Shown one piece after another: positions 1,130-18,772 of a DNA stretch of 64,000 nt. The translations under genes and the position numbers were made by a program. The notes beneath the pieces are model-generated. The model saw only the letters and a list, made by a program, of their open reading frames with translations. It made no database searches and had not been told where the DNA came from. Within the stretch, counting starts at the first letter, position 1. Every line of letters begins with the position of its first letter. This DNA comes from Streptomyces graminofaciens (GTDB lineage Bacteria > Actinomycetota > Actinomycetes > Streptomycetales > Streptomycetaceae), in contig NZ_AP018448.1 of the NCBI RefSeq assembly GCF_030294945.1, forward strand, positions 3,286,001 to 3,350,000, given 5' to 3'.

Positions 1130-2920
1130 TCAGACCGCGATGGGCGTGTAGACGGAGTTCTTCTCGGCGCTCTCCTCGACGGCCGCGAGTACGCGCTGGA
1201 CCTGGAGTCCGTCGGCGAAGGAGGGCTTCGGCTCGCGGTGCTCGGCGATCGCGTGCACGAGGTCGCGGGCCTGGTGGACGAAGGTGTGCTCGTAGCCGAG
1301 GCCGTGGCCCGGCGGCCACCAGGCGTCCAGGTAGGGGTGGTCGGGTTCGGTGACGAGGATGCGGCGGAAGCCGGCGTGGGTGCCGGGTTCGGTGTGGTCG
1401 TGGTAGGCGAGTTCGTTGAGGCGCTCCAGGTCGAAGGCCAACGAGCCGCGTTCGCCGTTGAGTTCGATGCGCAGGGAGTTCTTGCGGCCGGTGGCGAAGC
1501 GGGTCGCCTCGAAGGAGGCGAGGGCGCCGGAGGCGAACCTTCCCGTGAACAGGGCCGCGTCGTCGACCGTGACGGCCGCCCGCCCGGGTGTGGAGCCGGA
1601 CGAGGTGAGGCCGCTCGACGCCCCGGCGGGCAGTGGCCGTTCGCGTACGAAGGTCTCGGTCATCGCCGACACCCCGACGACCGGCTCCCCGGCCAGGTAC
1701 TGGGCGAGGTCGACGATATGCGCGCCCAGGTCGCCGAGCGCCCCCGATCCGGCCAGTTCCTTGCGCAGTCGCCAGGTCAGTGGGAACCGGGGGTCCACGA
1801 GCCAGTCCTGAAGGTACGTCACCCGTACGTGCCGCAGGGCGCCGAGCCGTCCCTCGGCGATCATGCGGCGGGCGAGCGCGGTGGCGGGCACCCGGCGGTA
1901 GTTGAAGCCGACCATCGCCAACTGGCCGCGCGCGCGGGCCGCTTCGGCAGCCGCCGTCATCGACTCCGCCTCCTCGACGGTGTTGGCGAGGGGTTTCTCG
2001 CAGAGCACGTGCTTGCCGGCGGCGAGCGCGGCGAGCGCGATCTCGGCGTGGCTGTCGCCGGGGGTGCAGATGTCGACGAGGTCGATGTCGTCCCGGGCGA
2101 TCAGGTCCCGCCAGTCGGTCTCGGTCGTCGCCCAGCCGTGCCGGTCGGCCATGGCACGTACGGCCTCGCCGTCCCGGCCGCAGACGGCGGCGAGGACCGG
2201 GGTGAGCGGCAGCTCGAAGACCCTGCCCGCGGTGCGCCAGCCCTGGGAGTGGGCGGCCCCCATGAAGGAGTAGCCGACCATGCCGACGCGCAGCGGCGGT
2301 TTCCGGGGGCCGGTGCCCGCGGGGGTGGGTGTGATTCCGGGGTGGGTGACGGTCCTGGGCGCCGTTCCCGCGTCGAGCCCGGCCACGGAGCCTCCAGCTT
2401 CGGGCCCGGGCTCGGCAGCGCTCCCGGAGCCGCTTCCTGCGTCGGTCCCGCCCCTGGTCGACGAACTCGTGGCCCCGGGCGTCCGCCCAGCTTCGGACTC
2501 GGTCCCGACGCCGCCCTCGGCCTCGGCCGGCGAGCCTTCGGCAGCAGACACGATCCCGGCTCCGGTGCCAGGCCTCGCCCCGCCCCCAGCCCCGCCCTCT
2601 CCCCCGGCATCGAACCCGTCCCTGGCCCCGGCCACCGCCCCGACCGGGGCCCCACGCCCTCGGCCGCCGGCCACCAAGCCCGCGGCACCGGCCGCACCCC
2701 CCGCACCGATGCCGCTCTCACTTCCAGCCCTGTCATAACCCCCACCCCCGACCCCGGCCAACGCCCCGGCCAGGGCCTCCCTCCCCACGCCGGTGGCCCC
2801 GGCCGCCGAGCCTCCGGCAAGAGAGGTATCCCCGGCTCCGCTGCCGGCCCCGGCGGTGAGCCCCGCGGCTCGTGTGTCCGGCTCCGCCTCGGCCTGGTCG
2901 GGCTGCTGCGGGTGTCCCAT
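1130..2920 (-). CDS. Gfo/Idh/MocA-family oxidoreductase with long low-complexity N-terminus
   Basis: From about residue 210 the protein is a typical NAD(P)-dependent sugar or inositol dehydrogenase: Rossmann motif GMVGYSFMGAAH, the catalytic-loop motif CEKPLAN, and a C-terminal substrate domain. Its 596 residues are about 200 more than usual. The excess is an N-terminal stretch made almost only of Gly, Ala, Ser, Glu, Pro and Thr. I keep the start at 2920 because a strong GAGGAGG site sits 6-8 bases upstream of that ATG; no comparable site precedes the Rossmann fold. It lies between the binding-protein and isomerase genes of a sugar operon. The catalytic assignment is firm; whether the extension is stable in the cell is unknown. 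Confidence 0.85.
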   Translation of the reverse strand: MGHPQQPDQAEAEPDTRAAGLTAGAGSGAGDTSLAGGSAAGATGVGREALAGALAGVGGGGYDRAGSESGIGAGGAAGAAGLVAGGRGRGAPVGAVAGARDGFDAGGEGGAGGGARPGTGAGIVSAAEGSPAEAEGGVGTESEAGRTPGATSSSTRGGTDAGSGSGSAAEPGPEAGGSVAGLDAGTAPRTVTHPGITPTPAGTGPRKPPLRVGMVGYSFMGAAHSQGWRTAGRVFELPLTPVLAAVCGRDGEAVRAMADRHGWATTETDWRDLIARDDIDLVDICTPGDSHAEIALAALAAGKHVLCEKPLANTVEEAESMTAAAEAARARGQLAMVGFNYRRVPATALARRMIAEGRLGALRHVRVTYLQDWLVDPRFPLTWRLRKELAGSGALGDLGAHIVDLAQYLAGEPVVGVSAMTETFVRERPLPAGASSGLTSSGSTPGRAAVTVDDAALFTGRFASGALASFEATRFATGRKNSLRIELNGERGSLAFDLERLNELAYHDHTEPGTHAGFRRILVTEPDHPYLDAWWPPGHGLGYEHTFVHQARDLVHAIAEHREPKPSFADGLQVQRVLAAVEESAEKNSVYTPIAV

Positions 2921-2994
2921 GCGTGTGTCCTCCTCGTGGTCGCGGTGGAGTGGGGTCTGCCTCGGGTCCCCCGGCCGACCCGACCGGCCCGGTG

Positions 2995-3013
2995 TAACCG
3001 GTTTAACCGGTTA
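2995..3013. repeat. TAACCGGT tandem repeat, copy 1
   Basis: TAACCGGTTTAACCGGTTA contains two AACCGGTT palindromes spaced one helical turn apart. A second copy at 21129-21147 matches 18 of 19 bases. Both are intergenic. It may be an operator or a small dispersed repeat. Confidence 0.5.
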
Positions 3014-3053
3014 GCTCGGTCAGGCCGGTCCGGGAGGACTCCGGCAGGGTCCG

Positions 3054-4094
3054 TCACTTGAAGCCGGTGGACATGTACTGGTCGACGTTGGCCTTGTCGA
3101 CGACCGCCGAGTAGAGCGTGAGTGACGACGGGATCTCGAACTCGGCGAGGCCGCTCACTCCCTTGCCCTGGCCGAGTGCCCGGGCGAGGTCGATCGCGGA
3201 GGCCGCCATGGTCGGCGGGTAGAGGACGGTCGCCTTCAGCACTCCGTCGTCCTTCTTGATGGCCTGGAAGGCGGACAGCGCGCCCGCGCCGCCGACCATC
3301 AGGAAGTCGTCGCGCCCGGACTGTTCGATGGCGCGCAGCGCGCCCACGCCCTGGTCGTCGTCGTGGTTCCACAGCGCGTCGAACTTCGACTGGGCCTGGA
3401 GGAGCTGGGCCATCTTGGCCTGCCCGGACTCCACCGTGAACTCGGCGGCCTGCCGTGCCACCTTCTCGATGTTCGGGTAGTTCTTCAGGGCGTCGTCGAA
3501 GCCCTTGGTCCGCTGCTTGGTCAGCTCCAGGTTGTCCAGCCCGGCGAGTTCGATGACCCGGGCGTTCTTCTTGTCCTTGAGCTGCTCGCCGATGTAGTGA
3601 CCGGCGTTGAGGCCCATGCCGTAGTTGTCGCCGCCGATCCAGCAGCGGTACGCCTGCGGGGAGTTGAAGATCCGGTCCAGATTCACCACGGGGATGCCCG
3701 CGCGCATCGCCTTCAGGCCGACCTGGGTGAGGGCCTTGCCATCGGCCGGCAGGACGACCAGCACATCGACCTTCTTGTTGATGAGAGTCTCGATCTGACC
3801 GATCTGCTGGGCGGTGTCATTGGACCCCTCGGTGATCTCCAGGGTGACGTCCTCGTAGCTGCCCGCGCGGCTCTTGGCGTTCTCGTTGATGGCGTTGAGC
3901 CAGCCGTGGTCGGCCTGCGGCCCCGCGAAGCCGATGGTGACCTTCTTGCCGGGCTTGTCGTCGGCGGCCGGCCGGTCGTTCGCCGCCGCGTCGTCACTGT
4001 CGGACTCGTTGCTGGTGCAACCGGCGAGGAGGGCGCCGGCCGAGACGGCGGCGGTCCCGAAGAGCAGTCCTCTACGGCTCGTGAGGTGTGCCAT
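3054..4094 (-). CDS. Sugar ABC transporter substrate-binding lipoprotein (RbsB-like)
   Basis: A 346-residue periplasmic-binding-protein type 1 (ribose/LacI-like) protein that captures a sugar outside the membrane for the adjacent permease. The N-terminus SRRGLLF, a hydrophobic core and the lipobox LLAGC suggest a Tat-exported lipoprotein anchored at the cysteine near residue 26. An acidic spacer follows, then the fold from VTIGFAGPQADHGW onward; DLARALGQGK lies near the C-terminus. It follows the permease by 45 bases. The ligand is not evident; the operon's oxidoreductase and isomerase suggest a sugar or polyol. Confidence 0.92.
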   Translation of the reverse strand: MAHLTSRRGLLFGTAAVSAGALLAGCTSNESDSDDAAANDRPAADDKPGKKVTIGFAGPQADHGWLNAINENAKSRAGSYEDVTLEITEGSNDTAQQIGQIETLINKKVDVLVVLPADGKALTQVGLKAMRAGIPVVNLDRIFNSPQAYRCWIGGDNYGMGLNAGHYIGEQLKDKKNARVIELAGLDNLELTKQRTKGFDDALKNYPNIEKVARQAAEFTVESGQAKMAQLLQAQSKFDALWNHDDDQGVGALRAIEQSGRDDFLMVGGAGALSAFQAIKKDDGVLKATVLYPPTMAASAIDLARALGQGKGVSGLAEFEIPSSLTLYSAVVDKANVDQYMSTGFK

Positions 4095-10258: not shown

Positions 10259-10396
10259 TCACCCGGTGAACAGTTGCGTGGCCTTGCGGACCAGTTCGTA
10301 CAGGCCGTACCCGAGTGGAATCCCCACCCAGAGCCAGGCCAGGACGATCAGTGGCCGCCGGTCAGGCGGATTCGGACTGCTTTCGCTCGACGACAT
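10259..10396 (-). CDS. MFS transporter small subunit (45 residues)
   Basis: A 45-residue protein with a polar, Pro/Ser-rich N-terminus and one membrane helix (IVLAWLWVGIPLGYGLYELV), ending in KATQLFTG. It matches the short proteins I know from actinomycete annotation as MFS transporter small subunits, found next to OFA-type transporters. Its ATG lies inside the transporter gene, overlapping that gene's last 35 bases in a different frame, so translation is probably coupled. It likely packs against the transporter in the membrane. Function beyond this association is not established. Confidence 0.75.
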   Translation of the reverse strand: MSSSESSPNPPDRRPLIVLAWLWVGIPLGYGLYELVRKATQLFTG

Positions 10397-11702
10397 CGGC
10401 TGCCTCCCTCGGGGACGGGATGTGGAAACGGGGGTGGACCGGCCGGACCAGCTCGTTGGCGACGAAGCCGATGGCGAGCAGGCCGATCATGATGAAGAAG
10501 GAGAGGCCGTAGAGGTCGGGGCCGTCCTTGCCCGCCTCCTCCTGTCGGTCGGCGATCCAGTTGACGATCAGCGGCCCGAGGACACCGGCCGTGGACCAGG
10601 CGGTGAGCAGCCGGCCGTGGATCGCGCCGACCTGGTAGGTGCCGAAGAGGTCCTTCAGATAGGCGGGGATGGTGGCGAAACCGCCGCCGTAGAAGGAGAG
10701 GATCACCAGGGCGCATACGATGAACAGCGGCTTGGAGGAGTCGCCGAACAGCGCGATCAGCAGATACATCAGCGCGCCGACGCCCAGGTAGACGCGGTAG
10801 ATGTTCTTCCGCCCGATCAGGTCGGAGGTGGACGACCAGACGATACGGCCGGTCATGTTGGCCGCGGAGAGCAGCGCGACGAAACCGGCTGCGGCGGTGA
10901 CGGAGACCGGGGTGGCGGACTTGGCGAAGAAGTCCGTGATCATCGGGGCGGCCTTCTCCAGGATGCCGATGCCCGCGGAGACGTTCATACAGAGGATGAC
11001 CCACAGACACCAGAACTGCGGGGTGCGGATGGCGTTGCGGGCGGAGACCTGCGGGCCCTCCAGGACGCTCGGTCCGCTGTCAGTGCTCACAGGGGCCTCG
11101 CCGCGCGGAACCCGCACCAGCAGCACGCCGAGCATCATGAACACGGCGTACGACAGTCCGTGCACGAGGAAGGCGAGGGCGATGCCGGAGGAGTCGGCGC
11201 CGAAGGACTCCAGCATCTGCGCGGACCAGGGCGAGGCGATCAGCGCACCGCCGCCGAAGCCCATGATCGCGATGCCGGTGGCCATGCCGGGCCTGTCCGG
11301 GAACCACTTGATCAGGGTCGAGACGGGCGAGATGTAGCCGATGCCCAGGCCGATGCCGCCGACGAAGCCGTAGCCGAAGACGATCAGCCAGTACTGCTCG
11401 GTGGCCGCGCCGAGCGAGGCGAGCAGGAAGCCGGAGGAGAAGCAGATCAGGGCCACGGTCATGGCCCAGCGCGGGCCGTTGCGCTCCACGAGCGTCCCGC
11501 CGAACGCGGCGGACAGACCGAGCATGACGATGCCTAGCTGGAAGGGCAGCGCGCTCTGGGTGCCGCTCAGGCCGAGGGCGGCTTCGAGCGGCGGCTTGAA
11601 CACGCTCCAGGCGTAGGCCTGTCCGATGGAGAGGTGGACGGAGAGGGCGGCCGGGGGGACGAGCCATCGGCTCCAGCCCGGAGGGGCGACGGGGGGACTC
11701 AT
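10362..11702 (-). CDS. OFA-family MFS transporter (oxalate/formate antiporter type)
   Basis: A 446-residue, twelve-helix major facilitator. The N-terminal SIGQAYAWSVFKPPLEAALG and the run from FGYGFVGGIGLGIGYISPVSTLIKW are family hallmarks of the oxalate/formate antiporter group. The substrate is inferred to be formate, oxalate or a related carboxylate because genes for formate dehydrogenase are divergently transcribed next to it and a GntR-FCD regulator is near. The start at 11702 has only a weak ribosome site. A 45-residue membrane peptide overlaps its 3' end. Confidence 0.88.
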   Translation of the reverse strand: MSPPVAPPGWSRWLVPPAALSVHLSIGQAYAWSVFKPPLEAALGLSGTQSALPFQLGIVMLGLSAAFGGTLVERNGPRWAMTVALICFSSGFLLASLGAATEQYWLIVFGYGFVGGIGLGIGYISPVSTLIKWFPDRPGMATGIAIMGFGGGALIASPWSAQMLESFGADSSGIALAFLVHGLSYAVFMMLGVLLVRVPRGEAPVSTDSGPSVLEGPQVSARNAIRTPQFWCLWVILCMNVSAGIGILEKAAPMITDFFAKSATPVSVTAAAGFVALLSAANMTGRIVWSSTSDLIGRKNIYRVYLGVGALMYLLIALFGDSSKPLFIVCALVILSFYGGGFATIPAYLKDLFGTYQVGAIHGRLLTAWSTAGVLGPLIVNWIADRQEEAGKDGPDLYGLSFFIMIGLLAIGFVANELVRPVHPRFHIPSPREAADVVERKQSESA

Positions 11703-11869
11703 GATCCCGGACGGTAGGCAGTGACAGGGGAGTTGAGAAGGCGGCGCGTCGACCGTGTCCGATGAGCGGTATCCACCGCGCGCCGAACGGTCGCGGCCCG
11801 GCCACCTTCATGTCCGGGTAATGCCTTGTCCGGCCCGTGCGTGAACCCTTGTCGAGCCAACTTCCATAC

Positions 11870-11891
11870 TGTAGACAATATTTCGTCGACA
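11870..11891. promoter_or_regulatory. Candidate GntR operator between OFA and PanE/FDH promoters
   Basis: TGTAGAC-N8-GTCGACA is an inverted repeat with one mismatch, in the 246-base gap between the divergent transporter and reductase genes. Its right half extends to TTTCGTCGACAGT, nearly identical to a site before the local GntR gene. Confidence 0.5.
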
Positions 11892-11948
11892 GTGTTCGGC
11901 AGTGCGCCATCTCCGCGGTATCCCTCGACCGAACGGAGCTCCCTCACC

Positions 11949-12920
11949 ATGAAAGTCGCAGTTCTCGGCGCCGGTGCGATCGGCGCCTATGTCGGCGCCG
12001 CGCTCCACCGCGCCGGCGCGGACGTGCATCTCGTCGCCCGTGGACCGCATCTGGCGGCCATGAGGCGGGACGGGGTGCGTGTGCTCAGCTCGCGCGGGGA
12101 CTTCACCGCCCGCGCCCACTCGACCGACGACCCGGCCGAGATCGGCCCGGTCGACTTCGTCCTCCTGGGCCTCAAGGCCAACTCGTACGCGGCGTGCGGG
12201 CCGCTGATCGAGCCCTTGCTGCACAGCACCACGGCGGTGATCGCCGCCCAGAACGGCATCCCCTGGTGGTACTTCCACCGGCACGGCGGCCCCCACGACG
12301 GCCACCGTGTCGAGAGCGTGGACCCCGGCGGCGCGGTCAGTGCGGTGCTCGCGCCCGAACGGGCCGTCGGCTGTGTCGTCTACGCGGCGACCGAACTCGA
12401 AGGCCCTGGTGTCGTAAGGCACTTGGAAGGCACCCGGTTCTCCATCGGGGAACCGGACCGCACGGTCTCGGCGCGCTGCCGGGCGTTCAGCGAGGCCATG
12501 GTGGCGGGTGGCCTGAAGTGCCCGGTCGAGCCCGACATCCGGGGCGACATCTGGATCAAGCTGCTCGGCAACATCTCGTTCAACCCGATCAGCGCCCTGG
12601 CCCGCGCGACCATGCGGCAGATGTGTCTGCACGGCGGCACCCGCAAGGTCATCGAGACGATGATGGCCGAGACGCTGGCCGTCGCCGAGGCATTGGGCTG
12701 CGAGGTCGGTGTCTCCATCGAGCGGCGGATGGCGGGCGCCGAGCGCGTCGGCGACCACCGCACCTCCACGCTCCAGGACCTGGAGCGCGGCAAACCGCTG
12801 GAACTCGACGTACTCCTCGCCGCCGTCGTCGAGCTGGCGGACATCACCGGTGTCGAGGTGCCCACGCTCCGCACCGTGCACGCCATCTCGGACCTGCTCG
12901 CACTGAGGAGCGCCGCATGA
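11949..12920 (+). CDS. Ketopantoate reductase-family protein (PanE/ApbA-like)
   Basis: A 323-residue NADPH-dependent 2-oxoacid reductase. The Rossmann motif VLGAGAIGAYVG is at the very N-terminus, and the C-terminal ApbA domain has the typical LLGNISFNPISAL segment. Classical members reduce 2-dehydropantoate to pantoate for coenzyme A synthesis; many paralogues act on other 2-oxo acids. The ATG follows CGGAG by eight bases. It is the first gene of the formate dehydrogenase operon, overlapping the next gene by four bases, so a role with C1 or C2 acids is as likely as pantothenate synthesis. Confidence 0.85.
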   Translation: MKVAVLGAGAIGAYVGAALHRAGADVHLVARGPHLAAMRRDGVRVLSSRGDFTARAHSTDDPAEIGPVDFVLLGLKANSYAACGPLIEPLLHSTTAVIAAQNGIPWWYFHRHGGPHDGHRVESVDPGGAVSAVLAPERAVGCVVYAATELEGPGVVRHLEGTRFSIGEPDRTVSARCRAFSEAMVAGGLKCPVEPDIRGDIWIKLLGNISFNPISALARATMRQMCLHGGTRKVIETMMAETLAVAEALGCEVGVSIERRMAGAERVGDHRTSTLQDLERGKPLELDVLLAAVVELADITGVEVPTLRTVHAISDLLALRSAA

Positions 12921-14860
12921 GGAAACGTCAACCGAAGACCTACACCCGTCTCACCCACCCGTTGGTGCGGGACTCCCGCGACGAACCCTTCCGGCAGGCC
13001 GGCTGGGACGAGGCCCTGGACCGCGCCGCCCGGGGCCTGGCAGCCGCACGGGGTGCGTTCGGCATGTTCTCGTGCGCCCGTGCCACCAACGAGATGAACT
13101 ACGTGGCGCAGAAGTTCGCCCGGGTGGTCATGGGCACCAACAACGTCGACTCCTGCAACCGGACCTGCCACGCACCGAGCGTCGCCGGTCTGACCGCTGC
13201 CTTCGGATCCGGCGGCGGCACCTCCTCGTACGAGGAGATCGAGCACACCGACGTCATCGTGATGTGGGGCTCCAACGCCCGCTTCGCCCACCCGATCTTC
13301 TTCCAGCACGTGCTGAAGGGGATAAGGAACGGGGCCCGCATGTACGCGGTCGACCCGAGGCGGACGTCCACCGCCGAGTGGGCGGAGAGCTGGCTGGGGC
13401 TGAACGTCGGCACCGACATCCCGATGGCCCACGCGATCGGCCGCGAGATCATCCACGCCGGGCTCGCCAACGAGGCGTTCATCGAGCGGGCGACCAGCGG
13501 CTTCGACGAGTACAGGGCCCTCGTCGAGCCATGGACGCTGTCCCTCGCCGAGAAGGTGACGGGCGTACCGGCCGCCGCCATACGGCAGCTGGCGCACGCG
13601 TACGCCCGTGCCGAGCGCGCCCAGCTGTGCTGGACGCTCGGCATCACCGAGCACCACAACGGCACGGACAACGTACGCGCGCTGATCAATCTGTCGCTGT
13701 TGACGGGCCATGTGGGGCGTTGGGCCTCGGGATTGCAGCCCCTGCGCGGCCAGAACAACGTGCAGGGCGGCGGCGACATGGGCGCGATCCCCAACCGGCT
13801 GCCCGGCTTCCAGGACATCCTCGACCCCGACAGCCGGCTGAGGTTCGAGTCGGCGTGGGACACCGTCATCCAGCCGCACTACGGGCTGAACCTGACGGAG
13901 ATGTTCGAGGCCATGGAGAAGGGCTCGTTGAAGGCCGTGTACTGCATCGGGGAGAACCCGGCGCAGTCGGAGGCGGACAGCGAGCAGGCGGTACGGCGCA
14001 TGCGGCAGCTGGACTTCCTCGTCGTGCAGGACATCTTCCTGACCAAGACGGCGGAGCTGGCGGACGTCGTGCTGCCCGCGACCGCCGGGTGGGCGGAGAC
14101 GGACGGTACGACGACCAACAGCGAGCGCCGCGTTCAGCGGGTGCGCAGGGCGGTCACCCCGCCCGGCGAGGCGCGCGAGGACATCGACATCATCTGCGAC
14201 CTGGCCTCCCGGCTCGGGCACGAGTGGAAGTACGCCGACGCCGAGGCCGTCTGGAACGAGCTGCGGTCGGTGTCGCCGGACCACTACGGGATGACGTACG
14301 AGCGTCTTCAGGAGCACCAGGGCATCCAGTGGCCGTGCCCGAGCACGGAGCAGTTGGAACCGACCTATCTGCACGGCCGGTTGTGGGACCCCGACCCGGC
14401 GAAGCGGGGCAGGCTCGCCCCGTTCGGGATCGTCCAGCACGATCCGCCGGTCGATCTGACGGACGAGGAGTACCCGGTCCGGCTGACCACCGGGCGGCGG
14501 CTCGACTCGTACAACACCGGTGTGCAGAGCGGGGGTTACGCGTCCCCGCTGCGGCGCGGGGAGTACATCGAGCTGTGCCCGGAGGACGCGGAGCGCTACG
14601 GGGTCGTGGTCGGCGAGGAGGTTCGGGTGTCCTCGCGGCGCGGGTCGGTGGTGGCGCCGGTGTGGATCGACCTGGCCCTGCGGCCGGGCCTCGCCTTCAT
14701 GACCATGCACTTTCCCGACGAGGTGGACACCAACCAGCTGACGATCGAGGCGAACTGCCCGATCGCGGGGACGGCGGAGTTCAAGGCGTCGGCGATCCGG
14801 ATCGAGAAGCTGGTCGAGAAGCTGGCCGAGAAATCGCCCGCCACGGCCGTGAGGAGCTGA
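12917..14860 (+). CDS. Formate dehydrogenase large subunit, C-terminal (molybdopterin) half
   Basis: A 647-residue molybdopterin oxidoreductase with the core of formate dehydrogenase: TNNVDSCNRTCHAPSVAGL carries Cys84-His85 at the position of the catalytic selenocysteine-His pair, and LRGQNNVQGGGDMG holds the conserved active-site Arg and cofactor-binding segment. The C-terminal molydop-binding domain begins near LTTGRRLDSYNTG. The usual N-terminal CxxCxxxC cluster domain is absent; the protein begins exactly where that domain ends in E. coli FdhF, and the missing part ends the protein of the gene at 16992. It is therefore a Cys-type formate dehydrogenase expressed in two pieces. Close relatives oxidise formate to CO2 in the cytoplasm. 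Confidence 0.9.
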   Translation: MRKRQPKTYTRLTHPLVRDSRDEPFRQAGWDEALDRAARGLAAARGAFGMFSCARATNEMNYVAQKFARVVMGTNNVDSCNRTCHAPSVAGLTAAFGSGGGTSSYEEIEHTDVIVMWGSNARFAHPIFFQHVLKGIRNGARMYAVDPRRTSTAEWAESWLGLNVGTDIPMAHAIGREIIHAGLANEAFIERATSGFDEYRALVEPWTLSLAEKVTGVPAAAIRQLAHAYARAERAQLCWTLGITEHHNGTDNVRALINLSLLTGHVGRWASGLQPLRGQNNVQGGGDMGAIPNRLPGFQDILDPDSRLRFESAWDTVIQPHYGLNLTEMFEAMEKGSLKAVYCIGENPAQSEADSEQAVRRMRQLDFLVVQDIFLTKTAELADVVLPATAGWAETDGTTTNSERRVQRVRRAVTPPGEAREDIDIICDLASRLGHEWKYADAEAVWNELRSVSPDHYGMTYERLQEHQGIQWPCPSTEQLEPTYLHGRLWDPDPAKRGRLAPFGIVQHDPPVDLTDEEYPVRLTTGRRLDSYNTGVQSGGYASPLRRGEYIELCPEDAERYGVVVGEEVRVSSRRGSVVAPVWIDLALRPGLAFMTMHFPDEVDTNQLTIEANCPIAGTAEFKASAIRIEKLVEKLAEKSPATAVRS

Positions 14861-14868
14861 GACAGGAC

Positions 14869-16995
14869 ATGGATCTGCACTTCGGCGACAGCAAGCCCAC
14901 GGACAAGGAGAAGGCGGCCGTCGACGCGCTGCTCGGCCCGCCGGAATCCTCCTGGGAGGGCGCGGACCGCTCCGACGCGGACCTTCGCTGGGCGCGGGGC
15001 GGGCGGGCGGCCCGGGAGCGCCGCGATCTGCTGTTGCCGGGGCTGCACGCGATCAACGACCGGGTGGGGTGGATCAGCGAGGGTGCGCTGGACTATCTGT
15101 GCCGTCGGCTGACGGTGCCGCCGGCGGAGGCGTACGGGGTCGCCACGTTCTATGCGATGTTCTCGGTGAAGCCCCGGCCGGCGACCGTGCTGCAGGTGTG
15201 CACGGATCTGGCGTGCGCGGCGGCGGGCGCGGCTGAGCTGTGCGCGGGGGTCGAGGCGCGGCTGGGGCTCGGGAGTGGGGTGCGGGTCGAGCGGAGTCCG
15301 TGTCTGGGGTTGTGCGAGCGGGCGCCCGCGGCGTTGGTGGTGCGGGCGGGGGGCTCCGCGCCGGACGGGGATGTCGACACCGCCTCCCCTACCCGTCCCG
15401 TCCGCCAGGGGCCGCGCCCCTTCGACCCGCCACGGGGCTCCGCCCCGGACCCCGTTTCGGGGGCCGACCCCCGGCCCCCCGCTCCTCAAACGCCGGGGGG
15501 GCTGACATTCCCTGGACCTGGCTTGGACGATCGCCCGGGCCAGGCACCACCAGCCCGTCCGGCGTTTGCGGACGAGGCCGTTCAGGCCGATGAGGGGGGT
15601 CTGGGGGCGCAGCCCCCAGGGCTCGGGGATGGGAAGGGGCGGCGGGGGCGAATTCCCTCCCGGGTGACGGCCGTCGTCGCACCGGCCACCGTCGACACGA
15701 CCGTCGTCACCGCCACGCTCCCGGAAATGGCTGCTGCCGAACCCCCGGCCGCCATGGCCGTGCCCCAGGCGGGCGCCCCCTCGCTGATCCTGCTGCGCCG
15801 CGTCGGCGTCGTCGACCCCGCCTCTCTCGACGACTACCGCGCCCACGGCGGCTACACGGCCCTCCGCCACGCCTTCGCCCTGGGCCCCGCCGGAGTCATC
15901 CGCGAGGTCACCGACTCGGGCCTCGTCGGCCGCGGCGGCGCCGCCTTCCCCACCGGGCGGAAATGGCAGGCCACGGCGTCGCAGCCCGACCATCCGCACT
16001 ACCTCGTGTGCAACGCCGACGAGTCGGAGCCCGGCACCTTCAAGGACCGGGTGGTGATGGAGGGCGACCCGTACGCCCTCGTGGAGGCGATGACGATCGC
16101 GGCGTACGCGACCGGCGCCCACCAGGGGTATCTGTATCTGCGGGGCGAGTACCCGAGGGCCCTGCGGCGCATGGAGCACGCCATCTCACAGGCCCGCGCC
16201 CGCGGACTGCTCGGCGACGACATCCTCGGCCAGGGGTACGCCTTCGACATCGAGATCCGCCGGGGGGCCGGCGCCTACATCTGCGGCGAGGAGACGGCTC
16301 TCTTCAACTCCATCGAGGGGTATCGCGGCGAGCCACGCTCGAAGCCGCCCTTCCCCGTGGAGAAGGGCCTGTTCGGCAAGCCGACCGTCGAGAACAACGT
16401 CGAGACCCTCGTCAACGTCCTGCCGATCCTCACCCTGGGCGCCCCGGCGTACGCGACGATCGGAACCGGCCGCTCCACCGGGCCGAAGCTGTTCTGTGTG
16501 TCGGGCAGCGTGGACCGGCCCGGCATCTACGAGCTGCCGTTCGGCGCGACGCTGGGCGAGCTGCTGGAACTGGCCGGGGTGCGCGGCCGGCTGCGGGCCG
16601 TGCTTCTCGGTGGCGCGGCCGGCGGCTTCGTACGGCCCGACGAGCTGGACATTCCCCTCACCTTCGAGGGCACCCGGGAGGCGGGCACCACGCTCGGCTC
16701 GGGGGTGGTCATGGCCTTCGACGACACGGTTCCGCTGCCCCGGCTGCTGCTGCGCATCGCGGAGTTCTTCCGGGACGAGTCCTGCGGGCAGTGCGTGCCG
16801 TGCCGGGTCGGGACCGTACGGCAGGAGGAGGCGCTGCACCGGATCGTGGAGCGGACGGGTGCGGCGGCCGCCGAGGACATCACCCTGCTCAGGGAGGTCG
16901 GCCGGGCGATGCGGGACGCCTCGATCTGCGGTCTCGGCCAGACCGCGTGGAACGCCGTGGAATCCGCCATCGACCGTCTGGGGGCGTACGAATGA
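14869..16995 (+). CDS. Fused NuoE-NuoF diaphorase subunit of formate dehydrogenase
   Basis: A 708-residue fusion that passes electrons to NAD. Residues 1-160 are a NuoE-like thioredoxin fold with 2Fe-2S ligands Cys111, Cys116, Cys145 and Cys149. Residues about 300-708 are NuoF: FMN/NADH motif GRGGAAFPTGRKW (355-366), CNADESEPGTFKDR, GAGAYICGEET, and 4Fe-4S ligands Cys639, Cys642, Cys645 and Cys687. Between them, residues about 172-265 are Pro/Gly-rich and encoded by a palindromic intergenic-type repeat. It lies between the two halves of the dehydrogenase large subunit and overlaps the next gene by four bases. A second start for a separate NuoF cannot be excluded. Confidence 0.9.
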   Translation: MDLHFGDSKPTDKEKAAVDALLGPPESSWEGADRSDADLRWARGGRAARERRDLLLPGLHAINDRVGWISEGALDYLCRRLTVPPAEAYGVATFYAMFSVKPRPATVLQVCTDLACAAAGAAELCAGVEARLGLGSGVRVERSPCLGLCERAPAALVVRAGGSAPDGDVDTASPTRPVRQGPRPFDPPRGSAPDPVSGADPRPPAPQTPGGLTFPGPGLDDRPGQAPPARPAFADEAVQADEGGLGAQPPGLGDGKGRRGRIPSRVTAVVAPATVDTTVVTATLPEMAAAEPPAAMAVPQAGAPSLILLRRVGVVDPASLDDYRAHGGYTALRHAFALGPAGVIREVTDSGLVGRGGAAFPTGRKWQATASQPDHPHYLVCNADESEPGTFKDRVVMEGDPYALVEAMTIAAYATGAHQGYLYLRGEYPRALRRMEHAISQARARGLLGDDILGQGYAFDIEIRRGAGAYICGEETALFNSIEGYRGEPRSKPPFPVEKGLFGKPTVENNVETLVNVLPILTLGAPAYATIGTGRSTGPKLFCVSGSVDRPGIYELPFGATLGELLELAGVRGRLRAVLLGGAAGGFVRPDELDIPLTFEGTREAGTTLGSGVVMAFDDTVPLPRLLLRIAEFFRDESCGQCVPCRVGTVRQEEALHRIVERTGAAAAEDITLLREVGRAMRDASICGLGQTAWNAVESAIDRLGAYE
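15382..15664. repeat. Palindromic Streptomyces-type repeat inside a coding region
   Basis: Near-perfect 18-base inverted arms (15487-15504 and 15551-15568, 16 of 18 paired) flank a spacer; outer parts are GGGGC/GCCCC-rich. I recognise this sequence type, with AAACGCCGG...CCGGCGTTT arms, from Streptomyces intergenic regions. Here it is in frame within the NuoE-NuoF linker. Confidence 0.7.
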
Positions 16996-17852
16996 CCGTG
17001 ATACCGCTGGGAGTGCCGCGCCGCCTCCTGGAGTTCACCATCGACGGCGACGAGGCCCGGGTCCCCGAGGGCTCGACCATCCTCGACGCCTGCCGGGCGG
17101 CCGGGAAGGACATACCGACGCTCTGCCAGGGCGACACCCTCACCCCCAAGAACGCCTGCCGGGTCTGTGTCGTCGAGGTCGAGGGGGCCCGGACCCTGGT
17201 CCCGGCCTGCTCACGCAAGGCCGAGCCCGGTATGGAGGTGAGGACCGACACCGAGCGGGCCCGGCACAGCCGCAAGGTCGTGCTCGAACTGCTCGCCTCG
17301 TCGGTCGATCTGTCGACCACACCGAGAGTCGCGGAATGGCTCAAGGAGTACGAGGCCAAACCGGACCGTTTCGGCCCGGACGCGGCCCGCCTCAACGAGC
17401 AACCGAAGATCGACAACGACCTCTACGTCCGCGACTACGACAAGTGCATCCTCTGCTACAAGTGCGTCGACGCGTGCGGTGACCAGTGGCAGAACACCTT
17501 CGCGATCTCCGTCACCGGACGCGGTTTCGACGCCCGGATCGCCGTCGAGCACGACGCCCCGCTCACCGACTCCGCGTGCGTGTACTGCGGGAACTGCATC
17601 GAGGTGTGCCCGACGGGGGCGCTGTCGTTCAAGTCGGAGTTCGACATGCGGGCTGCCGGTACGTGGGACGAGTCGGCGCAGACCGAGACGACCACGGTGT
17701 GCGCGTACTGCGGTGTGGGCTGCAATCTCACTCTGCACGTGCAGGACAATGAGATCGTGAAGGTCACCTCTCCGCACGACAATCCGGTGACCCACGGCAA
17801 CCTGTGCATCAAGGGCCGCTTCGGCTACCAGCACGTACAGAACCGGGACTGA
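16992..17852 (+). CDS. Formate dehydrogenase iron-sulfur subunit: NuoG-like domains plus N-terminal cluster domain of FdhA
   Basis: A 286-residue iron-sulfur protein. A 2Fe-2S ferredoxin domain has ligands Cys45, Cys56, Cys59 and Cys73. Two 4Fe-4S clusters follow, C152-x2-C-x2-C-x3-C162 and C196-x2-C-x2-C-x3-C206-P. The last 50 residues are the cluster domain normally at the start of formate dehydrogenase: C237-x2-C240-x3-C244 with C272 in LCIKGRFG. This is the piece missing from the molybdopterin subunit encoded at 12917. It should wire the molybdenum site to the NuoEF subunit. It starts four bases inside the upstream gene (ATGA). Confidence 0.9.
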   Translation: MTVIPLGVPRRLLEFTIDGDEARVPEGSTILDACRAAGKDIPTLCQGDTLTPKNACRVCVVEVEGARTLVPACSRKAEPGMEVRTDTERARHSRKVVLELLASSVDLSTTPRVAEWLKEYEAKPDRFGPDAARLNEQPKIDNDLYVRDYDKCILCYKCVDACGDQWQNTFAISVTGRGFDARIAVEHDAPLTDSACVYCGNCIEVCPTGALSFKSEFDMRAAGTWDESAQTETTTVCAYCGVGCNLTLHVQDNEIVKVTSPHDNPVTHGNLCIKGRFGYQHVQNRD

Positions 17853-17908
17853 TCGGGACGGCCGACCGGGGCCGATGGGGACGAGGACGGAAAGAGGGGT
17901 AGGGACGC

Positions 17909-18772
17909 ATGGGACGAGTCACGGAACGACGGAAGGTGATCCGTATCCGGGACGGGGCTGTCTCCACCCGCCCGGACACCCTCGTCGCCGAGGAACCCAT
18001 GGAGATCCGGCTCAACGGCAAGCCCCTCGCGATCACCATGCGCACCCCCGGTGACGACTTCGCGCTCGCCGCCGGGTTCCTGGTGAGTGAGGGTGTGCTC
18101 GGCGCGCAGGCCGATCTGCAGAACATCGTGTACTGCGCGGGCGCCACGGTCGACGGCTCGAACACGTACAACGTGGTGGATGTGAGGACCGCGCCGGGGG
18201 TGGTGATCCCGGACATCACGCTGGAGCGGAACGTGTACACGACCTCGTCGTGCGGTCTGTGCGGCAAGGCCTCGCTGGACGCGGTCCGTACGACGGCCCG
18301 CTGGGCGATCGACGACACGCACGGCGGTGACACTCCCCCGGTGCGGGTGGACCCCGAACTGCTCGCCGGCCTCCCCGACCGGCTGCGCGCGGCCCAGCGG
18401 GTCTTCGACCGGACCGGGGGTCTGCATGCGGCGGCCCTGTTCAGCGAGGAGGGGGAGCTGCTCGACGTACGGGAGGACGTGGGGCGGCACAACGCGGTGG
18501 ACAAGCTGGTGGGACGGGCTCTGCAGAGCGGCGATCTGCCGCTGTCCCGTGTGCTGCTGCTGGTCTCGGGGCGGGCCTCGTTCGAGCTGGCGCAGAAGGC
18601 GGTGATGGCGGGGATACCGGTGCTGGCGGCGGTGTCGGCGCCGTCGTCGCTGGCGGTGGACCTCGCGGTCGAGACCGGGCTGACGCTGGTCGGGTTCCTT
18701 CGGGGCACCTCCATGAACGTGTACGCGGGTGAGCATCGGGTCGCACTGCGGGCCGCGGCCGCCCAGGGCTGA
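17909..18772 (+). CDS. fdhD: Formate dehydrogenase accessory sulfurtransferase FdhD
   Basis: A 287-residue FdhD protein, which transfers sulfur from a cysteine desulfurase to the bis-MGD cofactor and is needed for active formate dehydrogenase. The essential CxxC is Cys115-Gly-Leu-Cys118 in TTSSCGLCGK. The C-terminal half has family segments DVREDVGRHNAVDKLVG and VSGRASFELAQKAVMAGIP. It is the last gene of the operon, 56 bases after the iron-sulfur subunit, with an AGGGG-type ribosome site. Its presence supports formate dehydrogenase activity rather than another molybdoenzyme. Confidence 0.96.
   Translation: MGRVTERRKVIRIRDGAVSTRPDTLVAEEPMEIRLNGKPLAITMRTPGDDFALAAGFLVSEGVLGAQADLQNIVYCAGATVDGSNTYNVVDVRTAPGVVIPDITLERNVYTTSSCGLCGKASLDAVRTTARWAIDDTHGGDTPPVRVDPELLAGLPDRLRAAQRVFDRTGGLHAAALFSEEGELLDVREDVGRHNAVDKLVGRALQSGDLPLSRVLLLVSGRASFELAQKAVMAGIPVLAAVSAPSSLAVDLAVETGLTLVGFLRGTSMNVYAGEHRVALRAAAAQG

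Follow-up and report, generated by a model that had tools for sequence, protein, structure and literature searches.

Predicted formate dehydrogenase of Streptomyces graminofaciens with FdhA encoded as two permuted genes

Results

A stretch of 64,000 nucleotides from Streptomyces graminofaciens (NZ_AP018448.1, positions 3,286,001 to 3,350,000; the window) contains a head-to-tail run of four plus-strand genes, in which the two halves of a putative formate dehydrogenase large subunit, FdhA, are encoded apart. The molybdenum (Mo) subunit P0001 (12917..14860, 647 aa) corresponds to the C-terminal half of FdhA. It is followed by a NuoE-NuoF fusion (14869..16995, 708 aa), by the iron-sulfur (FeS) subunit P0002, which corresponds to the N-terminal half (16992..17852, 286 aa), and by FdhD, a formate dehydrogenase accessory sulfurtransferase (17909..18772, 287 aa; PF02634; NF001943 with 394 bits against a cut-off of 269). 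A first-pass annotation of this DNA had listed NuoE and NuoF as two genes. By domain profiles both diaphorase parts are present, with [2Fe-2S] thioredoxin-like, flavin mononucleotide (FMN)-binding and NuoF iron-sulfur domains, but they form one single frame. The ATG of P0001 overlaps the stop codon of a panE-like gene and the ATG of P0002 that of NuoF, with ATGA at both sites, and therefore translation is probably coupled at both starts.

P0001 matched PF00384 at residues 11-431 and PF01568 at 522-624, and no match was obtained for PF04879 (Molybdop_Fe4S4), the domain of the proximal cluster FS0. P0002 contains Fer2_4 and Fer4 domains, i.e. a NuoG-like arm with one [2Fe-2S] and two [4Fe-4S] clusters on a chain of its own, and ends with PF04879 at residues 232-284 (profile positions 3-55 of 55; 17685..17843, plus strand). 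The FS0 ligands Cys237, 240, 244 and 272 were invariant in an alignment of 46 rows; Lys274 lies in the same domain. FS0 and Mo domains do not share a chain here: PF04879 occurs on P0002 only, the frames are apart and their order is reversed. Two other Mo proteins of this genome, taken as controls, have PF04879 within their own chain.

The two halves meet at one point of the known chains. On the Fdh-alpha profile TIGR01591 (672 positions), P0002 residues 235-286 were aligned to positions 1-52 and P0001 residues 10-629 to positions 52-672. Predicted folds, for which the chains were modelled singly, were superposed on FdsA (6tg9_A) at 21-307 for P0002 and 298-935 for P0001. Residue 5 of P0001 fell on residue 55 of E. 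coli FdhH by fold superposition (1fdi), and alignments of P0001 to the chains of FdhH, NapA and FdhF of the hydrogen-dependent CO2 reductase (HDCR) started at approx. residue 55-62. This agrees with the first-pass annotation, in which P0002 ended in the cluster domain and P0001 began at about residue 55 of E. coli FdhF without such a cluster; the singly modelled P0001 and P0002 each superposed on neighbouring regions of one and the same chain in the solved structures. The further claim that nothing overlaps or is lost between the pieces is correct for the break point itself; the N5-like cluster segment present in FdsA is, according to the alignment, missing from P0002.

The residues Cys84 (codon TGC at 13166..13168, plus strand, in the motif CNRTCHAPS), His85 and Arg277, which we take to be the catalytic Cys (or Sec) and His and the pterin-site Arg, are all located on P0001. 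Cys84 and Arg277 were invariant and His85 was found in at least 90% of 41 aligned rows. The notion of a Mo active site formed across two chains was thus too strong: the chain boundary falls between the pterin and FS0, with Lys274 on P0002, and leaves the Mo site itself unshared.

The first-pass annotation had named a full-length FdhA elsewhere in the genome as evidence against a split. None was found, as none of the ten PF00384 proteins (P0001 included) exceeded the Fdh-alpha cut-off. The other nine comprise two NasC-like proteins, a nitrate-reductase-like/CysJ fusion, a DmsA-like protein, NuoG of complex I, a member of the FdhF/YdeP family and three not named further; the NasC, DmsA and CysJ assignments lie below the family cut-offs. 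Locus L132 (1598-5830) of this genome encodes a 1411-aa protein in which a Mo part resembling nitrate reductase is fused to a CysJ-like flavoprotein. With P0002 as query, only one other place in its own genome was matched at E <= 1e-20.

At the thresholds used, both halves were found in 69 of 199 Streptomyces genomes, P0002 only in six, P0001 only in one and neither in 123. The halves therefore occur together in 69 of the 76 genomes having either (Fisher p 4e-45, kinship not corrected). Two of the exceptions are due to contig edges (G296, G426), and in the remaining five the Mo gene is absent or largely missing (G412, G427, G373, G316, G444). Five Streptomyces loci (L119-L123) are without the Mo/NuoE end, either completely or through an internal deletion, and retain FdhD and remnants of FeS, which suggests repeated loss from the 5' end.

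A search with P0002 gave matches at E <= 1e-20 in 233 of 296 Actinomycetota genomes, a number that includes fused FdhA and related arms and is not a count of the split form. Eighty loci were hand-picked from the stronger matches (phylum set; two genomes contribute two each). Of these, 27 had Mo, NuoE-NuoF and FeS/FS0 as separate frames in this order and 53 had FS0 plus Mo in one frame, so that both the fused relatives and the same split anticipated for actinomycete genomes were found. Among the best 80 of 565 loci from a scan of named genomes, the two-piece ones included loci of Streptomyces, Amycolatopsis, Kutzneria, Nonomuraea, Herbidospora and Pseudonocardia. It was also present in bins labelled Acidobacteria, Chloroflexi, Gemmatimonadetes, Planctomycetota, Bacillota, Chthonomonas (Armatimonadota) and Hyphomicrobiales, labels that are possibly wrong. 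The first-pass annotation had taken the FdhD gene as an argument for function; the gene does adjoin P0002, and the split itself is wider than this one genome.

Together with 11 further Streptomyces loci and the window, the phylum set and the named-genome scan amount to 172 loci; these collections overlap (by name or length, the contigs of G316 and L202 are the same, as are those of G296 and L143). Before counting, 32 loci were dropped with one half missing, short or out of frame. The halves were both of sufficient length in 140 loci, which divide into 85 two-piece and 55 fused ones (53, and two with overlapping alignments). The four parts share a strand and follow one another in an identical order in all 85 two-piece loci, which extends the permuted order described for this DNA (C-terminal half, NuoE-NuoF, N-terminal half) well beyond it. 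The FeS chain ends between -4 and +37 residues relative to the end of P0002 in 84 loci and at +71 in one. The start codon of the Mo chain is located 1-39 residues ahead of Arg11 in 84 of the 85, the remaining locus being cut by the contig.

Breaks seen in a single genome are often sequencing errors, assembly rearrangements or broken genes, and some Streptomyces loci have truly decayed. Such an origin is nevertheless close to negligible in probability for the break described here, given the same arrangement in 85 of 85 loci, the absence of any identical pair among their Mo sequences and the ATGA overlaps at both starts. Purifying selection acts on both halves, with a ratio of nonsynonymous to synonymous substitution rates (dN/dS) of 0.06-0.13 against five Streptomyces loci. 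A frame error or pseudogene is ruled out by the conserved arrangement and dN/dS. Since many soil bacteria retain this two-piece arrangement, the break looks like a long-established, working design rather than an accident of this genome.

Some loci deviate in their spacing. The gap between Mo gene and NuoE is longer in two two-piece loci, namely L134 (4160-6142; 1982 nt), where it perhaps holds an inserted gene, and L142 (5605-6022; 417 nt). In Halopolyspora (L219), the Mo gene (1416-3335, minus strand) lies approx. 12 kb from NuoEF-FeS (15786-18634, plus strand) on the opposite strand, and in a Chloroflexi bin (L220) the Mo half is on a different contig; both Mo genes have TGA at the catalytic codon. 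Another Chloroflexi contig (L208) contains NuoE, NuoF and the FeS arm with no FS0/Mo match within the contig stretch examined, and is perhaps a hydrogenase-type diaphorase.

The two-piece and fused forms differ in two further features. NuoE and NuoF form a single frame in 85 of 85 two-piece loci versus 4 of 39 scored fused loci, plus one with overlapping alignments. The N5-like motif CxxCx4-6C was found in 0 of 85 two-piece loci, compared to 46 of 52 fused loci and one of the two with overlapping alignments (one fused locus could not be scored). Between the NuoE and NuoF matches lie 420 nt in the window and 117-120 nt in 11 of 18 other listed Streptomyces loci. The linker of the fusion in the window (15380..15670, plus strand) carries in-frame dispersed GC-rich repeats; these have 46 matches in the genome, of which only the self match is full length.

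The catalytic codon is TGA (selenocysteine, Sec) in 57 of the two-piece loci and encodes Cys in 28, among them the window locus. TGA was found in all 23 two-piece loci of the phylum set from outside Streptomyces. SelB exceeded its cut-off in 22 of 23 TGA-type genomes tested and in none of five Cys-type Streptomyces. By these codons, the two-piece enzyme is predicted to be mostly a selenoprotein, with Cys in Streptomyces and kin. Short FeS frames of distant Actinomycetota (∼350-370 aa) were considered as further splits and rejected, since each ends at a TGA that is the catalytic codon of an FdhA in one piece; these loci were included among the fused ones. Apart from this, the fused FdhA-like protein encoded at locus L087 (G254:C84) has neither Cys nor Sec as its catalytic residue. 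A Sec-type FdhA (L086) lies ∼20 kb away, and matches of similar frame length (854-863 aa) were seen in G102, G142, G122 and G005.

A split Mo enzyme other than formate dehydrogenase, for example a nitrate reductase-like one, is very unlikely in view of this catalytic site. Fdh-alpha is the best NCBIfam match of P0001 with 611.6 bits, versus 404.6 bits for NasC. Besides the conservation of Cys84, His85 and Arg277 and the frequent TGA at codon 84, FdhD adjoins the locus, and within the stretch examined frc/oxc-like genes are near the two-piece locus in a few actinomycetes.

For phylogeny, 63 rows (quick trees) and then 48 rows (careful trees; 29 two-piece, 19 fused) were chosen from the 140 usable loci, and the trees were left unrooted. 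The careful trees place all two-piece rows together, separated from the fused rows by a single branch with a support of 98/97 for FeS and 100/100 for Mo. The quick trees agree on this division and differ in the nearest fused neighbours, which have long branches. The careful Mo tree shows a single switch between Sec and Cys within its two-piece part. Judged by these sequence trees, the two-piece form appears to have arisen once.

Its source would be an ancestral operon NuoE-NuoF-[FeS-FS0-Mo] that was circularly permuted, so that the large gene was opened between FS0 and Mo to give the new ends. The permutation may have proceeded by tandem duplication with loss at both ends or by excision and re-insertion; we infer both its direction and its mechanism. 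As the trees carry no root, the two-piece form could also be ancestral and the fused FdhA a later fusion. This is improbable: FS0 precedes Mo within one chain in FdhH, HDCR FdhF and NapA, and also in the two Mo proteins taken as controls from this genome, which makes a fused start the simpler one.

Discussion

The locus very probably encodes a cytoplasmic NAD-linked formate dehydrogenase with a Mo-bis-pyranopterin guanine dinucleotide (bisPGD) cofactor, made up of three chains, in which the step from pterin to FS0 crosses two chains and which arose once and has been kept by selection. The chains would be the catalytic P0001, the NuoE-NuoF diaphorase fusion and P0002, which unites the NuoG-like arm with the FS0 cluster, in other enzymes the first part of the catalytic chain. 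Oxidation of formate would take place at Mo-Cys84, where the residues are present and the activity is predicted. Electrons would pass from the pterin across the chain boundary by Lys274/FS0 on P0002, then over the Fer4 and Fer2 clusters of P0002 to the FeS cluster of NuoF, FMN and finally NAD+, as homology suggests.

The system belongs to a known enzyme class, of which it is a widespread variant in two pieces. The catalytic chain of FdhH-, FdsA- and Nap-type enzymes includes the first cluster past the pterin, and in HDCR FdhF (7qv7) and E. coli FdhH (1aa6, 1fdi) this chain starts with FS0 and has no NuoG-like arm. By sequence, P0001 matched HDCR FdhF best (7qv7_S; E 3.9e-147). The domain set is the same in FdsABG of Rhodobacter capsulatus (6tg9) and RaFDH (9ktl), and both halves superpose on chain A of the two. 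These enzymes have a single FdhA chain with an N5-like segment (by alignment), whereas here FdhA is two chains with no such motif in the 85 loci. The alpha chain of MeFDH1 from Methylorubrum extorquens (7vw6, 8j83) is likewise unbroken; P0002 corresponds to residues 69-343 and P0001 to 337-981 of it. A bisPGD enzyme of more than one chain is found in formylmethanofuran dehydrogenase FwdB/FwdD, where the separate piece is the C-terminal dinucleotide-binding domain. Here, in contrast, it is the N-terminal FS0 domain that is separated and moved to another subunit. NuoE and NuoF, fused here, are separate in FdsABG and RaFDH (FdsG and FdsB) according to PMC13397495. No description of the split was found in the open-access literature searched (most subscription journals lie outside it), including passages of PMC10100899, PMC13397495, PMC7331816, PMC10478512, PMC7325909, PMC5029168, PMC8411744 and PMC10192776.

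Several points weigh against this interpretation. Neither half alone reached the Fdh-alpha cut-off of 666.25 bits (P0001 611.6, P0002 54.4). The docking of FS0 of P0002 on the pterin face of P0001 and the activity on formate are both deduced. In one Sec-type genome (G022), no SelB over the cut-off was found, and the Fisher test of co-occurrence ignores kinship. In two Streptomyces genomes (G373, G427), P0002 is matched over its full length and the search for an intact Mo gene gave none; a Chloroflexi bin (G486) has NuoEF-FeS with no Mo match at E <= 1e-100, bins being incomplete. Because these three have P0002 without a Mo gene found, P0002 could have another use. It is quite unlikely, though, that the halves are unrelated subunits, with P0002 and NuoEF as a general diaphorase or in service of another enzyme and P0001 with a different FeS partner. 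P0002 ends in the FS0 domain of a Mo enzyme yet has no Mo domain, the two halves fill one chain without a gap on the Fdh-alpha profile and in the folds, they co-occur in the Streptomyces genomes as given above, and the FeS and Mo trees give the same division into split and fused forms.

For the three-chain formate dehydrogenase, the locus provides a natural cut at the pterin/FS0 boundary, and selection has maintained the two parts in distant lineages. The catalytic module could be made, loaded and studied separately from the electron-transfer arm, which bears on cofactor insertion and on engineered CO2/formate enzymes. A more speculative and rather doubtful idea is that the break turns the pterin-to-FS0 step into a genuine protein-protein interface: the Mo chain would receive its cofactor (and selenium) alone and then dock on a ready diaphorase arm, and the halves may be made, exchanged or switched separately. 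If true, the Halopolyspora and Chloroflexi-bin loci with a distant Mo gene would be independently regulated modules of one enzyme. The finding also aids annotation. Homologue listings contained 120 of 7999 and 120 of 8000 entries, and among the matches listed the source names were mostly 'molybdopterin oxidoreductase' and '2Fe-2S iron-sulfur cluster-binding protein' and only few 'formate dehydrogenase'; such names hide an enzyme whose halves occur in more than a third of the Streptomyces genomes sampled (69/199).

Upstream of P0001, the window contains a PanE-like reductase of the 2-dehydropantoate reductase family (11826..12920, plus strand) and a transporter of the major facilitator superfamily (MFS; 10362..11702, minus strand), which resembles lactate and oxalate-formate antiporters below the cut-offs (316.9/320; 179.8/374.85; 143.5/335). 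A PanE-like relative was found in 32 of 111 loci searched, including Streptomyces, Streptosporangiaceae and Pseudonocardiaceae. M. extorquens PanE2 was characterised as a putative oxalyl-CoA reductase (PMC8411744), and an OXC group made up of Actinobacteria was reported (PMC10192776). The MFS transporter and PanE only hint at a link to oxalate. Outside the window, frc (694.5 bits against a cut-off of 504.2) and an oxc-like gene lie side by side at C1:3266725-3269668, and the enzyme may burn formate from oxalate breakdown in this Streptomyces. This link is weakened by the oxc-like protein failing TIGR03254 (247.8 against 739.4 bits) and by the position of both genes 29 kb upstream of the locus, outside the operon. 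In Halopolyspora, panE, NuoE-NuoF and FeS stand together and adjoin frc and an oxc-like gene.

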